Part shown: positions 21,942-32,239 of the stretch, one piece after another
Layout: every line of letters begins with the position of its first letter
Position numbering within the stretch: position 1 is the first letter of the stretch
NCBI GenBank assembly: GCA_030432025.1
Contig: JAUIIA010000002.1
Span: forward strand, 271,276 to 335,275
Direction of reading: 5' to 3'
Length of the DNA: 64,000 bases
Source of the DNA: Alphaproteobacteria bacterium
GTDB taxonomy: Bacteria > Pseudomonadota > Alphaproteobacteria > Micavibrionales > Micavibrionaceae
Notes under the pieces: generated by a model
Told to the model about the DNA's origin: nothing
The model's input: the letters and a program-made list of their open reading frames with translations, nothing else
Databases searched by the model: none
Made by a program: the position numbers and the translations under genes

Positions 21942-22490
21942 CTAGCCTTTGAGCGCATTTCGCAGGGTATTAATCGCCGTATCCTCGGCCGCACTCACAT
22001 TCATCGGGTGGTTGGCGTCATCCGCCGACACACCGGACAGGGTGCTGGTGATCTTTCCGACGATAGAACCAAACAGACCGCCGCCCTCGTCATCATCATC
22101 AAACTCGCCGAATTCGCCGTAAGCTTGCGCAACCGTCGTCGCGATCTCCATCAACGCGGCACAGTAATTCTTGCACTCCTGCTCATTGGCACGCCCTGCC
22201 AGCAAGGCTTTCGCCTGCGCGGCTTCCTCCGGTACTTTAAAGTTCTGCGCGGCCCAGCGCGGCCACTCGGAACGCATCGCCAATGTCTGGCGCATCGCTT
22301 CTGCCGCGAACGGCTTGTCATCATTTAGGGAGGCAATGGCCTTGATACAGGATTCCAGAGCATCCATCTCACGCTCGTCATCTTCTTCTCCGCCTTCGTC
22401 ATCCGCATGACTGACATACACGCCAACCTTGTAAGGAAGCGAGCTCAGCAATTCGAGTTCGGAGGAAGAAAAATCATCAAGCGTTGTCAT
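21942..22490 (-). CDS. Hypothetical protein, paralogue of the next upstream gene
   Basis: 182 residues, family not recognised, predicted mostly helical, acidic, soluble. Shared with the 22512 product: LPYKVGVYVSHADDEGG near the N-terminus (against LPYRAGLWVSMSDDTGG), a central EWPRWAA / EWHEWQN segment, and a closing NTLRNALKG / NALALALD helix. The spacing agrees throughout, so this is a tandem duplication that has diverged. ATG 22490 has AAGGAG upstream. It sits between its paralogue and lepB, probably one operon. Confidence 0.6.
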   Translation of the reverse strand: MTTLDDFSSSELELLSSLPYKVGVYVSHADDEGGEEDDEREMDALESCIKAIASLNDDKPFAAEAMRQTLAMRSEWPRWAAQNFKVPEEAAQAKALLAGRANEQECKNYCAALMEIATTVAQAYGEFGEFDDDDEGGGLFGSIVGKITSTLSGVSADDANHPMNVSAAEDTAINTLRNALKG

Positions 22491-22511: not shown

Positions 22512-23078
22512 TTAAATGCTGTAGCGCGTATCCAGAGCCAGTGCGAGCGCATTCAGCGCCTTGCGTTCACTCAAAGATATATTCAAAAACTGTTCGAAAG
22601 ATTTAGAAGGCTGCTTCTTCAGGTTCGCCTTGATCTTGTTGATAACATAGGAGCTATAGACATTCAGCTTGTCTTTAAAAGACTGCTCTTCATACTCACG
22701 AAACGCCAGCGCGACAGCCTCACCGATCTCAATCAAGCGCTGCGCATAGGCATTTACTTCCTTATCATCGACATGATCACGCAGGATATTTAACGCATCC
22801 GCACATTCTTTCGGCACCTGATCAACACCGTTTTGCCATTCGTGCCATTCATCCTTGCGCTTAACCGTCTCATCCATGATGTATTGAAGTAATTCTGAGC
22901 CAAAAACCATTTCGGAAAAGCCGACAATAATGTTGTTCAGCGCCTGTACCTCTTTTTCATGGGATTCATCCCCGCCTGTATCGTCGCTCATACTCACCCA
23001 CAGACCGGCACGATAAGGCAAGCTCGTAATCAACGAGCGCTCATCGGCTGTCATTTTTTCGAGTACGGTCTTGTCCAT
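22512..23078 (-). CDS. Hypothetical protein, paralogue of the 21942 product
   Basis: 188 residues from ATG 23078 (MDKTVLEKMTADERSL). The open frame runs further upstream to 23237, but that part lies in a structured RNA leader and has no similarity to the paralogue, while 23078 matches the paralogue's start. The AGAGGG ribosome-binding site is buried in the 3' arm of an 11-bp stem ending in T7. Predicted helical, soluble, acidic; the DD(T/E)GG motif near residue 32 is conserved between the two copies. Function unknown; lepB context suggests only neighbourhood, not role. Confidence 0.6.
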   Translation of the reverse strand: MDKTVLEKMTADERSLITSLPYRAGLWVSMSDDTGGDESHEKEVQALNNIIVGFSEMVFGSELLQYIMDETVKRKDEWHEWQNGVDQVPKECADALNILRDHVDDKEVNAYAQRLIEIGEAVALAFREYEEQSFKDKLNVYSSYVINKIKANLKKQPSKSFEQFLNISLSERKALNALALALDTRYSI

Positions 23079-23164
23079 TAAAAAAAGCCCTCTGGTTCGA
23101 CTTGGCGATTGGGGTAACTCGATATTTAAGTTTACACCGAAACCACGCCTGAAAACCAGAGGGC
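23079..23164 (-). promoter_or_regulatory. Stem sequestering the ribosome-binding site, terminator-like
   Basis: On the minus strand GCCCTCTGGTT... wraps into a perfect 11-bp stem (23087-23097 with 23154-23164); inner GGCG/CGCC pairing extends it. The stem's 3' arm contains AGAGGG, the only ribosome-binding site for the 23078 start, and is followed directly by seven T residues and then the ATG. It could terminate transcription or block translation. It matches no riboswitch class I can name. Confidence 0.5.
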
Positions 23165-23199
23165 AAATATGAAGAATGACGGCTGCTACGCGAAACGTC

Positions 23200-23257
23200 G
23201 CTATCGGGTGTGAGGGCTTTGGTGGGTTGGATACCAAGGGAGGGTGTGCCCGACAGC
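23200..23257 (-). ncRNA. Second structured element upstream, possible leader RNA or small RNA
   Basis: Pairing blocks GCTATCGGG / CCCGACAGC at the base and CTTTGGT / ACCAAGG near the loop enclose a symmetric internal loop that is C-rich on the minus strand (CACACCCTCC opposite CCCTCACAC). With the stem at 23087-23164 this forms a ~175-base structured RNA on the minus strand ending in T7. It may be the 5' leader of the 23078 gene or an independent small RNA. 6S, SRP, tmRNA and RNase P hallmarks were looked for and not seen. Confidence 0.35.
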
Positions 23258-23320: not shown

Positions 23321-23440
23321 TTAGAACGGCATCATCAAATCTACGTAATAACCAAGGCCGTTCGGTACGTGCGTGTCGATCATATCGACCATTGTCACAA
23401 CCAAAAGCGCCATTACTGCACCATACATATAATTTACCAT
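23321..23440 (-). CDS. 39-residue predicted membrane peptide
   Basis: Starts MVNYMYGAVMALLVVTMVD and ends YYVDLMMPF. The first ~20 residues form one hydrophobic helix; the rest is short and polar/aromatic. ATG 23440 has AGAAGGAAA 6 to 8 bases upstream, a good ribosome-binding site, which supports real translation. Not recognised as a known small-protein family. It precedes the structured leader and the two paralogues on the same strand. Confidence 0.5.
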   Translation of the reverse strand: MVNYMYGAVMALLVVTMVDMIDTHVPNGLGYYVDLMMPF

Positions 23441-23760
23441 TTCGCGTTTCCTTCTATTCCGCCCCTAACCGAGGGTGTTTGTTTTCCTAATACAGAAGGA
23501 TTTGCAACGGCCGTGCCATTTATTTACATAAAACAAGATAGAATGGAAAGCGGCAAAAAACAGTATTTACGTTTAATTTCAGCACCTTAAGCACAAAAAA
23601 CATCTAAAAATTGAACTTAAATCAAAGGAAACCATCGGCCTAAACACGGCAAAAACAGCCTGAGCAATCTTACCTACACGGCAATATTTTCCATAAATTA
23701 GAGTCACTCAGGTTATATAGTGTGCTATATCTGTGCTACTCACGCCCCTAACGCACATAT
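23441..23760. other. AT-rich intergenic stretch downstream of sucD
   Basis: About 320 bases without a gene. It holds a perfect 6-bp inverted repeat, ATATAG-TGTG-CTATAT (23715-23730), and a repeated TGTGCTA (23721-23727 and 23733-23739). A promoter for the 23440 peptide must lie here but no convincing -35/-10 pair was found. Confidence 0.4.
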
Positions 23761-23793
23761 AAAAAACCCGCCGGCATAACACAGGCGGGTTTA
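23761..23793 (-). terminator. Rho-independent terminator of the sucC-sodC-sucD operon
   Basis: On the minus strand, AAACCCGCC and GGCGGGTTT form a perfect 9-bp stem with an 11-base loop, followed by a T-run. It lies 25 bases past the sucD stop. Confidence 0.85.
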
Positions 23794-24724: not shown

Positions 24725-25276
24725 TTAGTTGGCCTTGATGACACCGCAAGCAATACGGGCACCCGCACCACCGATAGGCTGTGTCATATGATCGTCAGGA
24801 TCGGCGTGGATCATGAACGCAGAACCGTCCGCATCCAGCAAAACTTCTTCATCATCCGCATCATCGGCTTCGCTAGCCGTGATTTCCAGATCATGCGCAT
24901 AAAGTTCAATCGCGACTTCACCGTTTTCAGGAACGATCAGGTTCGGCAAATCTCCGGCTTCAGGACCTTCAGGGTTCAGCAAACCGTGCTTGTCGTCTTC
25001 GTCACTGATGTGGCCTTTCGCCATTTTGAAGTGATCATGATCGCTACAGTCACCAACACTGTGAATGTGGAAACCATGGGCACCTGCCGGCAAGCCTTTG
25101 ATATCGACATTCATCAAAACCCCTTCGGGGCCCTGCTTGATGTTGATCGTGCCGATCTCTTCACCGGCATTATTGATAATTGAACTCATTGCGCCATCGG
25201 CTGCCATCGCTACGCTAGTAGACATGGACAATACCGCCGCAACGGACAAAGCTGTTTTTGAAAGTGTCTTAATCAT
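24725..25276 (-). CDS. sodC: Periplasmic Cu/Zn superoxide dismutase
   Basis: 183-residue SodC that dismutates superoxide in the periplasm. Signal peptide [19 protein letters not shown] ending near AMAA, then the copper ligands in [25 protein letters not shown]-type order: HGFHIH, bridging His and zinc ligands through [21 protein letters not shown] with a further copper His, and [12 protein letters not shown] at the end. The disulfide cysteines (GDC and ACG) are present. An acidic insert ([10 protein letters not shown]) sits before the last copper ligand. It lies between sucC (2-base gap) and sucD (31-base gap), with GGAGG in the end of sucC serving as ribosome-binding site. Confidence 0.93.
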
Positions 25277-26487: not shown

Positions 26488-26751
26488 GGATGAAAAATCT
26501 CCGATCTAATTAGTGAATCTCATGACAAGACTTAATGCGCTGCAGTACGATTTGCAACCCCGTTTCCGTGAAGAAATTCGGCATTTTTAGGCCCCTACCC
26601 CCGAAATACTGCGAAAAACCCGCAATTATTAATGCCGCGTTAAGATTTAATTAAATTTTAGACAGTATTATGCGAGGTGAACAAGGATGCATGAATATAT
26701 AAGCATTCACTAACAAAAGAGATAAAAACGGTTATATAAAGGGTGTAATTG

Positions 26752-28725
26752 ATGTCAGATAATGACAGCACATCAAACGAAAGATTCCTCATCATCATCG
26801 CAAAGAACGATGATGCCGACGGCTTTAATATCTCCGAAACAGATTTGACGACAGCAAGAGGCGCTAACGAGGCCCTCATGCTGATTTCCGGTGGCGCTGG
26901 CGGAAACTTTGCCGGGATCGCCACAGGCGGACAAGCAGAAATAGAAGCGCGTATCAGAGAAGAACAGGAAAAAGATGAGAATCTTCGTATCTATACGTAT
27001 ATGGCTTCCAACGATGCCTTTTCTTTCTTCACATCAACGTCTGTAGGGCGCGAACTAGCTCAAACCTTAGTCAACGTAGCGGTCACTGTGGCTAAAGTCG
27101 ATGCTGATACCTTAACAGGATTACAAGCCGCCCAATTGGCACTTGATGATGGTTTTATAGATGCGGTAACCCATGAAAATTACGAAGACACGTTAAAAGC
27201 TCTTCAAGCCCGTGTTCACGCTAGAGAACAAGAGATTAGAACGAATGCTGCAGAAATCGAAGAGCAGTTCGACGCTGCCTTAGAAGGCATTAAATCCATG
27301 TTGCGCTTCTCTGGAGCAGATAACCCCGAAGCTGCCGCAGAAACAATCACTAAATTCATAGAGCTGGACAAACAGTTAGTTACGATCAACATCGAAAACG
27401 CGGACGGCCTGCCCTTCAAGGTCGCCGTTTTCAAAGGCGACGAAGAAGGCCAATATTATTACATTTCTCCTGAAACGAATGAACGTGTTGAAATTACCGA
27501 CCCTAGCCACTTGGAAATCATAGATTTACAGGAAAAAGTAGGGATGCTTTACGGCAACGATGCCGGAGCAGGCAATTTGGCTGAGGAGCTCACAAATATT
27601 CAAACCGCATTCTTGAGCAAAATCTCGAAATCAGGCTTAGGCTCAGCCTACGAAACAACCTTCAACAGCATGGCAGCAACAAGCTTGGACTTGCTCAACA
27701 TACAAGTTGCAACCCAAGAAATCGAAGGGTTGAGCGGACTCTTAAGCAGGCAAATCGAAGACTTTCAAAGCGGTTTAGACGCCGGCGCTACACCTGAAGA
27801 ACTTAGAGCTAATATTACCAGATTCAGAGATGCCTACCTGACCTCGAACCGAGTGTATGACAATCATTATCGAACCATTAGCGATAACCTGAGAATGTTT
27901 AAGCAAGGTTTTGGATCAATGATGGATCAGCTCAAAGAGCTGAGAGATGAATCAGCTAAAATGACTGAAACATTGCGAATTGCACAAAGGAACAACATCG
28001 CAGACCGTGATGATCAGATCCGCGCCAGGTTCCCCGATGAATGGACCCCTCCTGAATGGATGATTAACATGGGTAGCGATGGTCAGGTTGCCTGGACGGC
28101 AAGGCAATTTGCCAGTGCCGAACTTAAGCAAGCATGGCAAAATGTTGTTCAACATGAAGGCAAAGATGTCTATCGCGAGAACGAAACCCTGAATTTATAT
28201 ACGTTGAGTGAAGATGGCGAAACACGCCACTACATTACCGATCCGGCCACCTTGGCCCGCCTGAACAGAGAAGCTTATGGTGAGCCTAACGCAGACGGCT
28301 CTCCTTCTAATGACTTCAAATTCTTCGCCAACGAAACGCCTTACGGGGTCTCAAAATTCGATACATTTAAAGAGTCATTCATTGAGAACACAAGCCACGA
28401 CCGCGTTGAAGAGGCGATGAGATCAAACCTGGAGCGCGGAGAGCAAAGATACGGCCACGGCGATGAAATGCCCGTGCGCACAAGAGAAACAGGCGAAGAC
28501 CTGCTCTCATCCGGCTTGGGGCCCCGTTTCTCGACCTCAGCCAGAATGGGCCGTCAACTAACCGCAGGCGTCGTCGCAGAGCGAAGCGGACTGGATGTTG
28601 ACCCTGTAAGAGGCAGTTTTGCTAATCAGGCAGGCCTAAATGGCGAAACCGTTGTCGCTTCCTTTGATCCTCCTTCTGACGATAACGTACTGGACCCTGA
28701 CGCCACCCCTAATTCCCTTGGCTAA
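26752..28725 (+). CDS. Large acidic coiled-coil protein of unknown family, 657 aa
   Basis: Not recognised. No signal peptide and no membrane segment. Helical and heptad-like stretches occur around residues 140-180, 330-370 and 395-415 (e.g. MMDQLKELRDESAKM). The C-terminal ~130 residues are polar, Gly/Ser-rich and probably disordered. ATG 26752 directly follows an in-frame TTG at 26749; AAAGGGTGT lies 5 bases upstream. First of three same-strand genes with matching leaders, inserted between sucC and mdh, and with lower G+C by eye than the flanking TCA genes. Confidence 0.65.
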   Translation: MSDNDSTSNERFLIIIAKNDDADGFNISETDLTTARGANEALMLISGGAGGNFAGIATGGQAEIEARIREEQEKDENLRIYTYMASNDAFSFFTSTSVGRELAQTLVNVAVTVAKVDADTLTGLQAAQLALDDGFIDAVTHENYEDTLKALQARVHAREQEIRTNAAEIEEQFDAALEGIKSMLRFSGADNPEAAAETITKFIELDKQLVTINIENADGLPFKVAVFKGDEEGQYYYISPETNERVEITDPSHLEIIDLQEKVGMLYGNDAGAGNLAEELTNIQTAFLSKISKSGLGSAYETTFNSMAATSLDLLNIQVATQEIEGLSGLLSRQIEDFQSGLDAGATPEELRANITRFRDAYLTSNRVYDNHYRTISDNLRMFKQGFGSMMDQLKELRDESAKMTETLRIAQRNNIADRDDQIRARFPDEWTPPEWMINMGSDGQVAWTARQFASAELKQAWQNVVQHEGKDVYRENETLNLYTLSEDGETRHYITDPATLARLNREAYGEPNADGSPSNDFKFFANETPYGVSKFDTFKESFIENTSHDRVEEAMRSNLERGEQRYGHGDEMPVRTRETGEDLLSSGLGPRFSTSARMGRQLTAGVVAERSGLDVDPVRGSFANQAGLNGETVVASFDPPSDDNVLDPDATPNSLG

Positions 28726-28882
28726 ACCTCAAGTTTGTTCAACAAAAACAAACAATTCACTCGATTTCGACTATCTCTTAATTCTTTGTAAATCTTTACA
28801 TATTAATATAAGTGTACGCGTAAGGAGTGCTTACCTTTAAAAAACAAGAAAAAGCACAATAAAAACAAGGGTGTGTAACAAT

Positions 28883-31800
28883 ATGGCAGGTGAGACCTTA
28901 AATCCACCAAAAGAAGTTGAAGAAACGCTGGTCACAGACGGTGACGAGCGTTTTGATGCGTCTGTAACACCCGTATTGCCAGTTGAACTAGACACAGCCC
29001 TGGACACATTCCTGTCCACTCTCGACCTTGAAGATACCACCAGCATGGACTTCGCAATCAGTTCATCTTTGTCTGAAGCCCTTGAAAACGGCCACGACGC
29101 TGAAGCGCTGATCTCCGTAGTCGAGCAATTAGAACCACAACAAGTGGTCGAACTACTTGCCAGTATCGATAACCCGAGTGACGTTCCCGATACAGTCACA
29201 ATGAATAGCCTTCTCAGCGGTGACCCAAACAGTCAGGCGGCTCAGTTCATCCTTGAAAACCTCGCGAAACAGTGTGCCAGCGGTGCCTTCATCACCATGC
29301 AGTCCACTCAGCGTCAGGATGGAAGAGAAGCTGAAGCTGAAAGAAAAAGAGGCGGCTTAAGCACAAGTGCTTACCTTCAGTCATTGTCAGGAATAGACCT
29401 GTATTTGCATTTCGATGCAGAACTGGACGCTTACCGTGAACAATTCAAACCTGCTTTCCTCGCTGCTGCCGACAAGTTTTTGGATGCAGAAACGGTTGAG
29501 GAAAAAGATGAAATCTTCATTAGAGAGCGTGACAGAGTCTTAGCTGAACTCAACAGCGATCCTAAATTCGCTGAGCTTACACAAGATCAGCGTGATCAAC
29601 TCGCAGAAATGTTTGTTACAGAACAATTGCAAGAAGCCATTATGGAAAGATTAATGGAACGCGACCCGTCTCTGAGCCAAGATGCCGCCCGAGAAATGGC
29701 TCAAGCAGAAATGCTGAGCTACTTAAATGCAATTAGCGACAACCCGGAATCAGCACCCGCTATCATTAGCGAATTACAAAGCCTGACCGCGGAGCGTACG
29801 ACTTTGGAATCTCTGCTCGCTACAAAACAAGCAGAAAGAGATGAGGCAAGAGAAGAACTCACAGATATCCAAGAGCGCAACCTAGCAGACGCAAACGCAC
29901 TAACAGACCCTGTTGAGAAAGCCGTTGCCCTTTCTGCTCTAGACTCAATGGCATGCCCTACACCTAGTGCATTGGAAGAGCAAATACGCGCAACAATGGC
30001 TGAACACGGCGAAACAAGCCCTGATGAAGCCCGCGTGCAAGAATTAGTTCAACATTATCACAATTGGGCCACCAGAGATGCGCAAGAGATCTATAAAGAA
30101 ATAGATATCAGTCAGCTTGAAAAACAAATCCGAGAAATAGAAGGACAGATTAGCGCATTAGACCAACGTATCGCAGACCTTGAAGCCGCTGGCCTTACAG
30201 ACTCCGTTTTGGCTGATTCTCTCCGTGATGAGAGACAGGTTTATTCTGAAGCACAACAGCAGCTATCTGATGACTTGAGCGAGCTGTCTACACAAGCCGC
30301 GCAAGCTGCGCAAGATGCTGAAGAAATTGCAGCAGACCTTGAAACAGCTGAAATGAAAGTGGCCGCAGCAGAAAAAGATGTCGCGGCCGATGAAAACAAT
30401 ACAATGGTAGCTGCCGCTGCAGCCGAAGGCGCAGCCGCAAGCGTTCAAGAAATGGGTTTTGCTGTAATTGGCATCAAAGACCTTTTGGACAGCACCCCAG
30501 TTGAACATCTGCCACCAACATTGGCCATGTTTACAAACGTAGACAGAGAAGAAATCAGAGAAGCCCTCGGCGAAGCAAGTTTCTTGGTAGACCGCAGTGA
30601 AGACGGTCAAATATTCGCATATCTGGGCAATGGCGAGCGTTTCCCTCTTTCAGAAGAAGCCCAACAGCTTATCCAAACAGCAGGATCTATCACTCATGGA
30701 ATAGTCGAGCGCGGTTTCAGAACAGACTTTGAATCAGGCGGCGTAGCTGTGCAACAAATGTTTACAAACACAGCAACCCTTACCGAAAACGTAGCATCAC
30801 TTACAGCTTCTGAAGACAGATTGGCATCAGCAAAATCTGAGGTAGAAAGCGCGGTGAACGCCGCAAATGAAGTAAGAGAAAACCTAGATGGCTACCGAGA
30901 TCGTGCAACCAATCTGGAACAGCGAATTTCCGACATGAAAGCAGCCGGCCTAGACACATCCGCTTTCGAAAAGCAGCTGCAAGATACTTATGACAGCATT
31001 TATCAAGGTAACGTCGCTCTTGGGACATTCCAAGTTGACTTAGCTCAGCAGCTCGGTCTACCGGAACCAAATTTTTCATTCCTTGACTACGACTTTGGCA
31101 ACACTCTTGACACGTCGCTCTCTGGAGGCAATGCCACTCTGACGCTTGATACGACATCTTCGTCATTCCTTTCTGAAAACTACGATCTTGGCTTAAACAC
31201 CACGCCAAACCTTGGCGCTGCTGACTTCAACAGCTTTGACCTAAACACTTTAAGCTTTGGAAACATTGACTTCACAACTCTTACAGGGGACTTAACAACA
31301 AGCTCAACTCTGGCAATCGATAGTCCCTACTCTGTTGGATATCAAGCTTTAGACTTAAGCTATGATTTCTATGATGACAGCTTTTTCGACTTTGACTTTG
31401 GGTCACTGGATTACTCGTCGTTAACGTTAGATGATACTTACTTCCAATCAACTCAAGAGCTTTTTTCTTCAATCGACACAACGTCAATTGAACAGAATCT
31501 CTCAGACATTGAAGCTGGCCTAAACTCACAGCTTCAAGAATTAAGGGCACAAATTCTTGTAGATGCGGGCGTCCCTCCGGAGCTGCACGAAGCCTTCCTG
31601 AAAGATCTGGATGTTTCCATGGCAGCTGGAGTTTGCGTAGACCTTACGCACGTAAAAGATCAACTAGGTATAGCGCCATTCTCCGCCAAAGACCTTTCAA
31701 ATGTCGACCTCTTTAACGCAGCCTCTACTATGACTGAAGAAGAAGCTCTGGCACAACGCCTACAAATGACCGTGGACCAGTTAGCCTTTACCGAAGAAGG

Positions 31801-32239
31801 TGAACGTTTTAGAGAAATCATCGCACAGCTGGAAGAAACAACGGGCGAAAAATATGAATACGAATTTGCAGGCACAGAAAAGTCAGGTGCCGACGAAGGT
31901 GCTGAAGCCCTAACTCTCGAAGGCGCAACATCAGAAGCCGAAATGACCGAAAGCTTCCGCATGCATCAAGATGCATTAGCGTACATAGAGCAATTCGGCA
32001 GCAACGGCTACGACGATATCCATGCATATCTGGAAGACAAATTCGACCGCGAAATCCCGCAAGCCGAAATGGACACGCTGGTCGCAAAAATTGAAAACGA
32101 TGACGGCATCGAAATCGCACCAAGCACACTTCTGGAAAGCACAGCTGAAGAGAAACCTGAAGAGCAGGAACTCGAAGTTGCCAGCGTTTCACCTGCTGTC
32201 AGAAATGACTTTGATCACAGCGCTTACACCCCCGCATAA
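28883..32239 (+). CDS. Giant acidic coiled-coil protein with DF/DY-rich region, 1118 aa
   Basis: Not recognised. No signal peptide or membrane segment. An acidic N-terminal third; long coiled-coil at roughly 300-520 and again 650-710 (rich in Ala, Glu, Gln, e.g. AAQAAQDAEEIAADLETAE); then at about 728-855 an unusual low-complexity Asp/Ser/Thr/Phe/Tyr segment with recurrent DF, DY and LDxxTL units (FNSFDLNTLSFG, DDSFFDFDFGSLDYS). The C-terminus is acidic again. The frame starts at GTG 28871, but ATG 28883 with AAGGGTGT 8 bases upstream is the better start. Very large structural protein; role unknown. Confidence 0.65.
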   Translation: MAGETLNPPKEVEETLVTDGDERFDASVTPVLPVELDTALDTFLSTLDLEDTTSMDFAISSSLSEALENGHDAEALISVVEQLEPQQVVELLASIDNPSDVPDTVTMNSLLSGDPNSQAAQFILENLAKQCASGAFITMQSTQRQDGREAEAERKRGGLSTSAYLQSLSGIDLYLHFDAELDAYREQFKPAFLAAADKFLDAETVEEKDEIFIRERDRVLAELNSDPKFAELTQDQRDQLAEMFVTEQLQEAIMERLMERDPSLSQDAAREMAQAEMLSYLNAISDNPESAPAIISELQSLTAERTTLESLLATKQAERDEAREELTDIQERNLADANALTDPVEKAVALSALDSMACPTPSALEEQIRATMAEHGETSPDEARVQELVQHYHNWATRDAQEIYKEIDISQLEKQIREIEGQISALDQRIADLEAAGLTDSVLADSLRDERQVYSEAQQQLSDDLSELSTQAAQAAQDAEEIAADLETAEMKVAAAEKDVAADENNTMVAAAAAEGAAASVQEMGFAVIGIKDLLDSTPVEHLPPTLAMFTNVDREEIREALGEASFLVDRSEDGQIFAYLGNGERFPLSEEAQQLIQTAGSITHGIVERGFRTDFESGGVAVQQMFTNTATLTENVASLTASEDRLASAKSEVESAVNAANEVRENLDGYRDRATNLEQRISDMKAAGLDTSAFEKQLQDTYDSIYQGNVALGTFQVDLAQQLGLPEPNFSFLDYDFGNTLDTSLSGGNATLTLDTTSSSFLSENYDLGLNTTPNLGAADFNSFDLNTLSFGNIDFTTLTGDLTTSSTLAIDSPYSVGYQALDLSYDFYDDSFFDFDFGSLDYSSLTLDDTYFQSTQELFSSIDTTSIEQNLSDIEAGLNSQLQELRAQILVDAGVPPELHEAFLKDLDVSMAAGVCVDLTHVKDQLGIAPFSAKDLSNVDLFNAASTMTEEEALAQRLQMTVDQLAFTEEGERFREIIAQLEETTGEKYEYEFAGTEKSGADEGAEALTLEGATSEAEMTESFRMHQDALAYIEQFGSNGYDDIHAYLEDKFDREIPQAEMDTLVAKIENDDGIEIAPSTLLESTAEEKPEEQELEVASVSPAVRNDFDHSAYTPA

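Follow-up and report, generated by a model that had tools for sequence, protein, structure and literature searches.

What is the role of the structured minus-strand stretch that ends directly before the start codon of a 188-codon gene? The window, by which we mean the whole 64,000 nucleotides of DNA analysed, contains at this place a perfect 11-bp stem, as the initial annotation had described it, and the presence of a structured element on the minus strand is confirmed. The arms of the stem, GCCCTCTGGTT (23164-23154) and AACCAGAGGGC (23097-23087), can be read directly in the sequence and delimit a GC-rich hairpin (23087-23164), which is followed at once by a run of seven T (23086-23080), a single A and the ATG of the gene at 23078. 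The motif AGAGGG occurs once on the minus strand of 23079-23257 and is located in the 3' arm of the stem (23088-23093). The second hairpin reported upstream is equally real: it closes the segment 23200-23257 by pairing exactly 23257-23249 with 23208-23200, over 9 bp of which one is G-U, and is seen in the fold and in the comparison of the window's own genome (G000) with its relative G004.

The element occupies the end of a 0.7-kb intergenic stretch. Read along the minus strand, the window has sucD, a terminator-like hairpin, this intergenic DNA, geneA, geneB, lepB and sucA in succession, where sucA and sucD, like sucC, carry names that we presume from their sequences, and lepB and sodC are named by Pfam. 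The gene that follows the element, geneA (22512-23078, 188 aa), belongs to no Pfam family, and 35 of its homologues yield scattered weak Pfam matches, none of them common to more than two; geneB (21942-22490) is its paralogue with 30% identity. The hairpin after sucD, found by eye at 23761-23790 on the minus strand and followed by a T-run, separates the locus from sucD. Elsewhere in the neighbourhood, the Cu/Zn superoxide dismutase gene is located between sucC and sucD (24725-25276, minus strand), and two long open reading frames occupy the plus strand at 26749-28725 (658 codons) and 28871-32239 (1122 codons), the former with no significant Pfam match and only SUKH_5 at E 0.13.

The stem followed by a T-run is unique in both strands of the 64-kb window under an exact inverted-repeat search (arms of at least 11 bp, loop of 3-80 nt, at least six T in the next eight positions), and 20 first-order Markov simulations produced no such repeat. 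A simple terminator scan lists neither the hairpin at 23164-23080 nor the one after sucD, because it allows only loops of 3-8. The 221 nt at 23060-23280 fold at -68 kcal/mol (z -3.61), a value as low being reached in none of 200 shuffles. The terminator hairpin alone has a stability of -35.5 kcal/mol and a z of -5.63. Homologous hairpins are found at the same position in three other genomes, with z of -5.29 (G004), -6.58 (G003) and -7.19 (G012). The 190 nt upstream of the terminator do not stand out in the window (z -0.55) or in G003 (-0.95), and do somewhat better in G012 (-2.03) and G004 (-2.65).

Covariation, which had been proposed as a check of the element, is present in the terminator helix of the four genomes (G000, G004, G003 and G012) and in the whole element of two. 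Across the four, 39 of the 40 cells of the 10-bp terminator helix are paired, and double-sided changes affect three of the ten pairs (6 cells). The helix scores 0.517 for covariation, a value matched by 4 of 500 shuffles, and slid versions reach at most 0.286; the count of doubly changed pairs does not exceed that of shuffles (294 of 500), since the helix comes in two versions that belong to two clades. The whole element, compared between the two sequences of G000 and G004, comprises 26 predicted pairs, none of them broken and four changed on both sides. DNA-level relatives of the stretch are confined to 2 of 57 genomes, the window's own and G004. A covariance model of the terminator, searched under stricter filters through the best 45 of about 150-470 candidates per genome in the genomes listed, recovers by construction the four genomes it was built on and, among 104 genomes, one marginal match (G116, E 0.04); there was no convincing further copy among these best candidates.

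In all four genomes the 3' arm of the terminator is at the same time the Shine-Dalgarno sequence of geneA, and the T-run, retained as T6-T7, abuts the geneA ATG. In the window AGAGGG is the only apparent Shine-Dalgarno sequence of geneA; its distance to the ATG is 9 nt here and 10 nt in G004, while GGGGAG takes its place at 7 nt in G003 and 8 nt in G012. Across 697,342 strand-bases from the window and the compared loci, a set of overlapping loci biased to this neighbourhood, there are nine distinct sites at which exactly matching 8-bp arms are followed by T6. Four of these sites adjoin the start of an open reading frame of at least 60 codons, and all four are the fused terminators before geneA. 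This joining of the terminator to a ribosome-binding site, seen in four genomes that all went into building the covariance model, appears to be a local compaction. The best reading of the hairpin with its T7 is that of an intrinsic terminator, which belongs to a separate transcription unit of about 410 nt.

Computed folding shows what the overlap would mean for translation. With both arms in the RNA, the Shine-Dalgarno sequence has an unpaired probability of 0.00 in each of the four genomes; if transcription starts inside the hairpin, at a point taken to be 7 nt after the -10 hexamer, the probability rises to 0.49-0.65. The burial of the ribosome-binding site claimed by the initial annotation thus holds for read-through RNA. 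The regulatory leader that was deduced from it, a riboswitch or RNA thermometer controlling geneA translation through the sequestered Shine-Dalgarno sequence, finds no such support, and we regard it as highly improbable. No match at gathering score to any of 4227 Rfam families occurs in the whole window, and seven matches in a 901-nt region at E up to 5 all fall far below their gathering scores. The unit that ends at the hairpin also exists in two genomes, G007 and G016, in which no geneA-type gene was found. Melting as a thermosensor is unlikely because a hairpin of this stability would presumably make a poor thermometer. Overlaps of terminators with ribosome-binding sites are easily misread as riboswitches. 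Phage records gave no match to the stretch.

The transcript that would end at the hairpin can be traced to a predicted promoter. Sigma-54 promoters follow the consensus TGGCAY-N5-TTGCW, with GG and GC 10 nt apart. The minus strand at 23518-23503 matches it as TGGCAC-N5-TTGCA (TGGCACGGCCGTTGCA), a -24/-12 site with an expected start near 23492, about 410 nt upstream of the T-run; an exact site appears in 1 of 2000 mononucleotide shuffles. Between this site and the T-run lies a small protein gene, which bears on another suggestion of the initial annotation, a small RNA of about 175 bases terminated at the T-run. A small RNA that ends at the T-run, its presumed 3' end, is supported, but it is probably not a primary transcript of 175 bases: with the promoter about 410 nt upstream and a gene in between, an RNA of 175 nt could arise only by processing, as a 3' fragment.

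The small gene (23321-23440, minus strand) starts 62 nt downstream of the promoter and encodes a 39-codon peptide, MVNYMYGAVMALLVVTMVDMIDTHVPNGLGYYVDLMMPF, followed by a stop. Its length and residues are conserved, as judged by two sequence profiles, and it has no Pfam match at E up to 1. Substitutions between copies concentrate in the third codon position, which varies most in all eight pairs compared and accounts for 46-68% of differences (12, 8 and 28 differences at the three positions between G000 and G004), so that the open reading frame is very likely coding. The first profile finds 18 copies in 16 of 104 genomes of the family; the larger second profile finds 19 of 142 genomes of the order, namely the same 16 and three from another family. 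An even sample across the class gives 4 matches in 385 genomes, three of them from the same family (the window's own genome included) and the fourth a weak match (E 0.009) that falls within a frame of 568 codons. All these counts should be read as minima, because in G031 and G013, which match neither profile, divergent small open reading frames stand behind a sigma-54 site.

Together with these two, the 18 profile matches make 20 family copies of the unit, and 16 of them are preceded by an exact TGGCAY-N5-TTGCW site. The remaining four either fit a looser pattern (L043, L046) or keep the GG-N10-GC spacing only (L039, L047). A sigma-54 site is absent from the 150 nt before each of the three copies that come from the order's other family (f5, L091-L093). 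The gene for sigma-54, rpoN, was found in the window's own genome and in all 16 family genomes with the peptide, a co-occurrence that says little because 95 of the 104 family genomes have rpoN anyway. The own genome contains six exact sites, against two for a reversed control pattern. One of the other five precedes flgK, which hints at a possible tie of the unit to the flagellar programme; three of the other four have neighbours with no Pfam match, one of these three having been searched in part.

From these elements we interpret the stretch as the 3' end of a small sigma-54-driven transcript, whose terminator merges with the beginning of geneA and insulates this gene; we place the probability of this reading at about two in three. 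It corrects the initial interpretation to a predicted unit of a sigma-54-driven peptide and a C-rich RNA, in which the terminator would also provide the gene behind it with a ribosome-binding site. Sequence comparison shows the sigma-54 site, the conserved peptide gene, the covarying terminator and its overlap with the Shine-Dalgarno sequence. RNA polymerase with sigma-54 would start near 23492, transcribe the peptide gene, continue into a structured 3' region presenting a C-rich loop, and stop at the hairpin and T7 (23164-23080), a termination that we infer, as we do the small RNA, its action in trans and a geneA promoter inside the hairpin. The 3' part would act as a small RNA or be processed into one, with its C-rich loop binding in trans to ribosome-binding sites that are rich in G. 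RNA that reads through would carry the Shine-Dalgarno sequence buried and yield no geneA translation, whereas RNA begun inside the hairpin would lack the 5' arm and be translatable; the element would in this way insulate geneA from the sigma-54 unit, and geneA would probably be silent unless transcribed from its own start point.

The unit and geneA differ in their distribution. A geneA-type gene or its paralogue is present in 95 of the 104 family genomes, some of which have three, and 81 of these (95 less 14 with both) have no match to the peptide profile. Conversely, in G007 and G016 the peptide unit stands before sucA and is followed by terminator-like hairpins of its own, as seen by eye. 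Since each occurs without the other, the unit and geneA are separable.

A promoter of geneA was sought with a two-block model trained on 62 loci without the hairpin (66 less one for N or length and three redundant), one of which (L064) was wrongly anchored, its locus being cut by a contig end. The consensus is TTTGAG, 11 nt and NNNTGTATNNT, and 18 of the 62 loci score at least 8 for such a TTTGAG/TGTAT promoter. At the hairpins, the score is 6.2 in G003, reached by 2 of 100 mononucleotide shuffles, and 5.0 in G012, reached by 14 of 100; the two candidate promoters have the same spacing, with the 5' arm of the terminator placed between -35 and -10. The full promoter is unsupported in the window (score 1.6; 71 of 100 shuffles) and in G004 (3.3; 33 of 100), and a sigma-70 scan found no site inside the window hairpin. 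These two genomes have about 12 nt more between the 5' arm and a -10-like block, CGGTGTAAACTT (23128-23139, minus strand in the window). Taken alone, the -10 block is unusual in both, being equalled by 9 of 500 shuffles for the window and 6 for G004; the corresponding numbers are 1 for G003 and 74 for G012. It belongs to the better-kept half of the hairpin, in which 39 of 41 positions up to the block are identical between the window and G004, against 24 of 31 after it. The internal geneA promoter would accordingly be a good match in G003, a weaker one in G012 and a -10 half only in the window and G004.

The poor promoter scores in the window and G004 suit a conditional attenuator of the UpsM type, in which geneA lacks its own promoter and is expressed by the fraction of sigma-54 transcripts that read through, the balance being shifted by a factor or by the C-rich loop. 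The loop can indeed pair with the 3' arm over 9 bp in the window and 7 bp in G004, and the mraZ leader of Rhodobacter works by read-through of the UpsM terminator, according to the part of PMC5089854 consulted. Read-through RNA, however, has the Shine-Dalgarno sequence fully paired in all four genomes; geneA-type genes persist in the 81 genomes without a peptide-profile match; the promoter consensus scores at least 8 in 18 of the 62 loci without the hairpin; and the -10 block is retained inside it. We consider conditional attenuation unlikely on this balance.

The C-rich loop itself, CACACCCTCCCTTGGTATCCAACCCACCAAAGCCCTCACA, comprises the 40 nt at 23209-23248 of the minus strand and is a candidate antisense region. 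Its excess of C over G is 18, a value reached by 0.4% of random pieces; in G003 the excess is 24 (0.08%). For comparison, 56 stretches downstream of long open reading frames in the window have a mean excess of 6.8 and a maximum of 15. An excess of at least 13 within 170 nt after the peptide gene is found in 12 of the 20 family copies, against 6.5% of 3975 random pieces; this recurrence is suggestive only, because the threshold was set after the values were seen and the copies are related, and the 170 nt partly overlap the next gene in some. Three copies have an excess of 10-11 (L043, L044 and L041, the last being the copy of G012, which has the fused terminator), five have a low excess of 4-7 (L034, L035, L036, L040 and L042), and the f5 copies give 5, 8 and 11.

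The five low copies, which have promoter and peptide without a C-rich region, together with the clear coding constraint on the peptide, favour a simpler account: a strong terminator that incidentally serves as a ribosome-binding site, with the peptide as sole product and no regulatory role for the C-rich region. The recurrence of C-rich or CA-rich loops in several genera speaks against it, as does the conservation of the loop between G000 and G004, where 35 of 40 positions are identical, compared with 5 of the 16 positions that immediately precede the 9-bp hairpin and 7 of the 16 that immediately follow it. We give this account little credence.

If the insulated unit releases a small RNA, geneA itself might be among its targets. 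The loop of the window includes AAAGCCCTC (23220-23212), which is perfectly complementary over 9 bp to the Shine-Dalgarno region of geneA, and the duplex reaches -21.7 kcal/mol, a value that none of 300 shuffled loops attains. Of nine translation starts compared within the window, geneA pairs best with the loop, followed by sucA (-18.1). In G004 the loop pairs with its own geneA leader over 7 bp at -15.7, as low in 21 of 300 shuffles. G003 and G012 have no such match between loop and Shine-Dalgarno sequence, and 293 and 294 of 300 shuffled loops, respectively, pair at least as well; pairing of the loop with geneA was therefore dropped as a general mechanism. Its specificity is doubtful as well, since both loops pair better with the leader of G003 than with their own (-26.5 against -21.7 for the window, -25.5 against -15.7 for G004). 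At most, geneA is a predicted clade-specific target of the loop. A bolder model has the unit silence geneA twice, in cis by the passage of polymerase and the buried Shine-Dalgarno sequence, and in trans by the loop AAAGCCCUC acting as antisense on the Shine-Dalgarno sequence of mRNA that starts at the internal promoter. The same 80 bp would then hold the terminator together with the promoter and the ribosome-binding site of geneA, and the unit would perhaps be co-expressed with flagella. We put this model forward tentatively, as a possibility with the odds well against it; it is weakened by the stronger pairing of the window loop with the G003 leader.

Among known systems, the nearest precedent for a terminator-made small RNA before a gene appears to be the UpsM leader of dcw/mraZ in Rhodobacteraceae (PMC5089854, as far as its cited portion goes). 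The likeness lies in a small RNA with its terminator ahead of a gene, and a start site of Sinorhizobium mraZ is also placed within a predicted terminator there. The gene behind UpsM is described in the same portion as lacking a promoter of its own and needing read-through, whereas the present locus has a peptide gene, a sigma-54 site and a Shine-Dalgarno sequence inside the terminator arm.

The closest analogue of the unit as a whole is the CcaF1-CcsR (CIN1) locus of Rhodobacter sphaeroides, to judge from the portions of PMC10253847 and PMC8625941 consulted: a gene for CcaF1 (DUF1127) under an RpoHI/RpoHII promoter, four small RNAs (CcsR1-4) derived from its 3' UTR, and a Rho-independent terminator. 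The present unit, predicted from its sequence, resembles it in having an alternative-sigma promoter, a small protein gene, a putative small RNA from the 3' UTR and a Rho-independent terminator. It differs in the sigma-54 site in place of RpoHI/HII; in its peptide of 39 aa, which is unrelated to the 71-aa DUF1127 protein CcaF1; in one hairpin against four RNAs; and in the overlap of its terminator with the ribosome-binding site of the next gene. The C-rich CCUCCUCCC loops described in the portion cited for the rhizobial RNAs SmelA075 and SmelA099 (PMC3927594) have no counterpart, the motif having zero occurrences on either strand of the window. Since neither the protein family nor the loop motif matches, the unit is not a member of CIN1. 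If the predicted unit is borne out, it would represent an independent counterpart of CIN1, combining a small protein with a C-rich small RNA under sigma-54 in an alphaproteobacterial order that has received little study; the peptide has no Pfam match and the RNA no Rfam match. It would also exemplify a covarying terminator that supplies the ribosome-binding site for the gene behind it. The GraL RNAs reportedly arise as short RNAs from a terminator in the greA leader, ahead of the gene; they share with the present locus the leader terminator, and their gene is unrelated, which sets them apart by description. Among the matches listed for titles and beginnings of abstracts in the open-access literature, there was no description of this locus.

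Copies of the unit vary in their arrangement. The peptide relatives in the f5 family are 40 aa long. In G013, a sigma-54 site upstream of geneA is followed by two different small open reading frames of 37 and 39 codons (L028), neither of which matches the peptide profile. Genus g51 (L046-L050, L048/L094) displays further variants: in G112 a second sigma-54 site precedes a divergent small open reading frame, and G113 and G114 carry two tandem copies of the unit, each of which has a separate promoter, a CA-rich loop and a CCGGCGCAATGCCGG-type terminator; a further sigma-54-like site, recognised by eye, follows.
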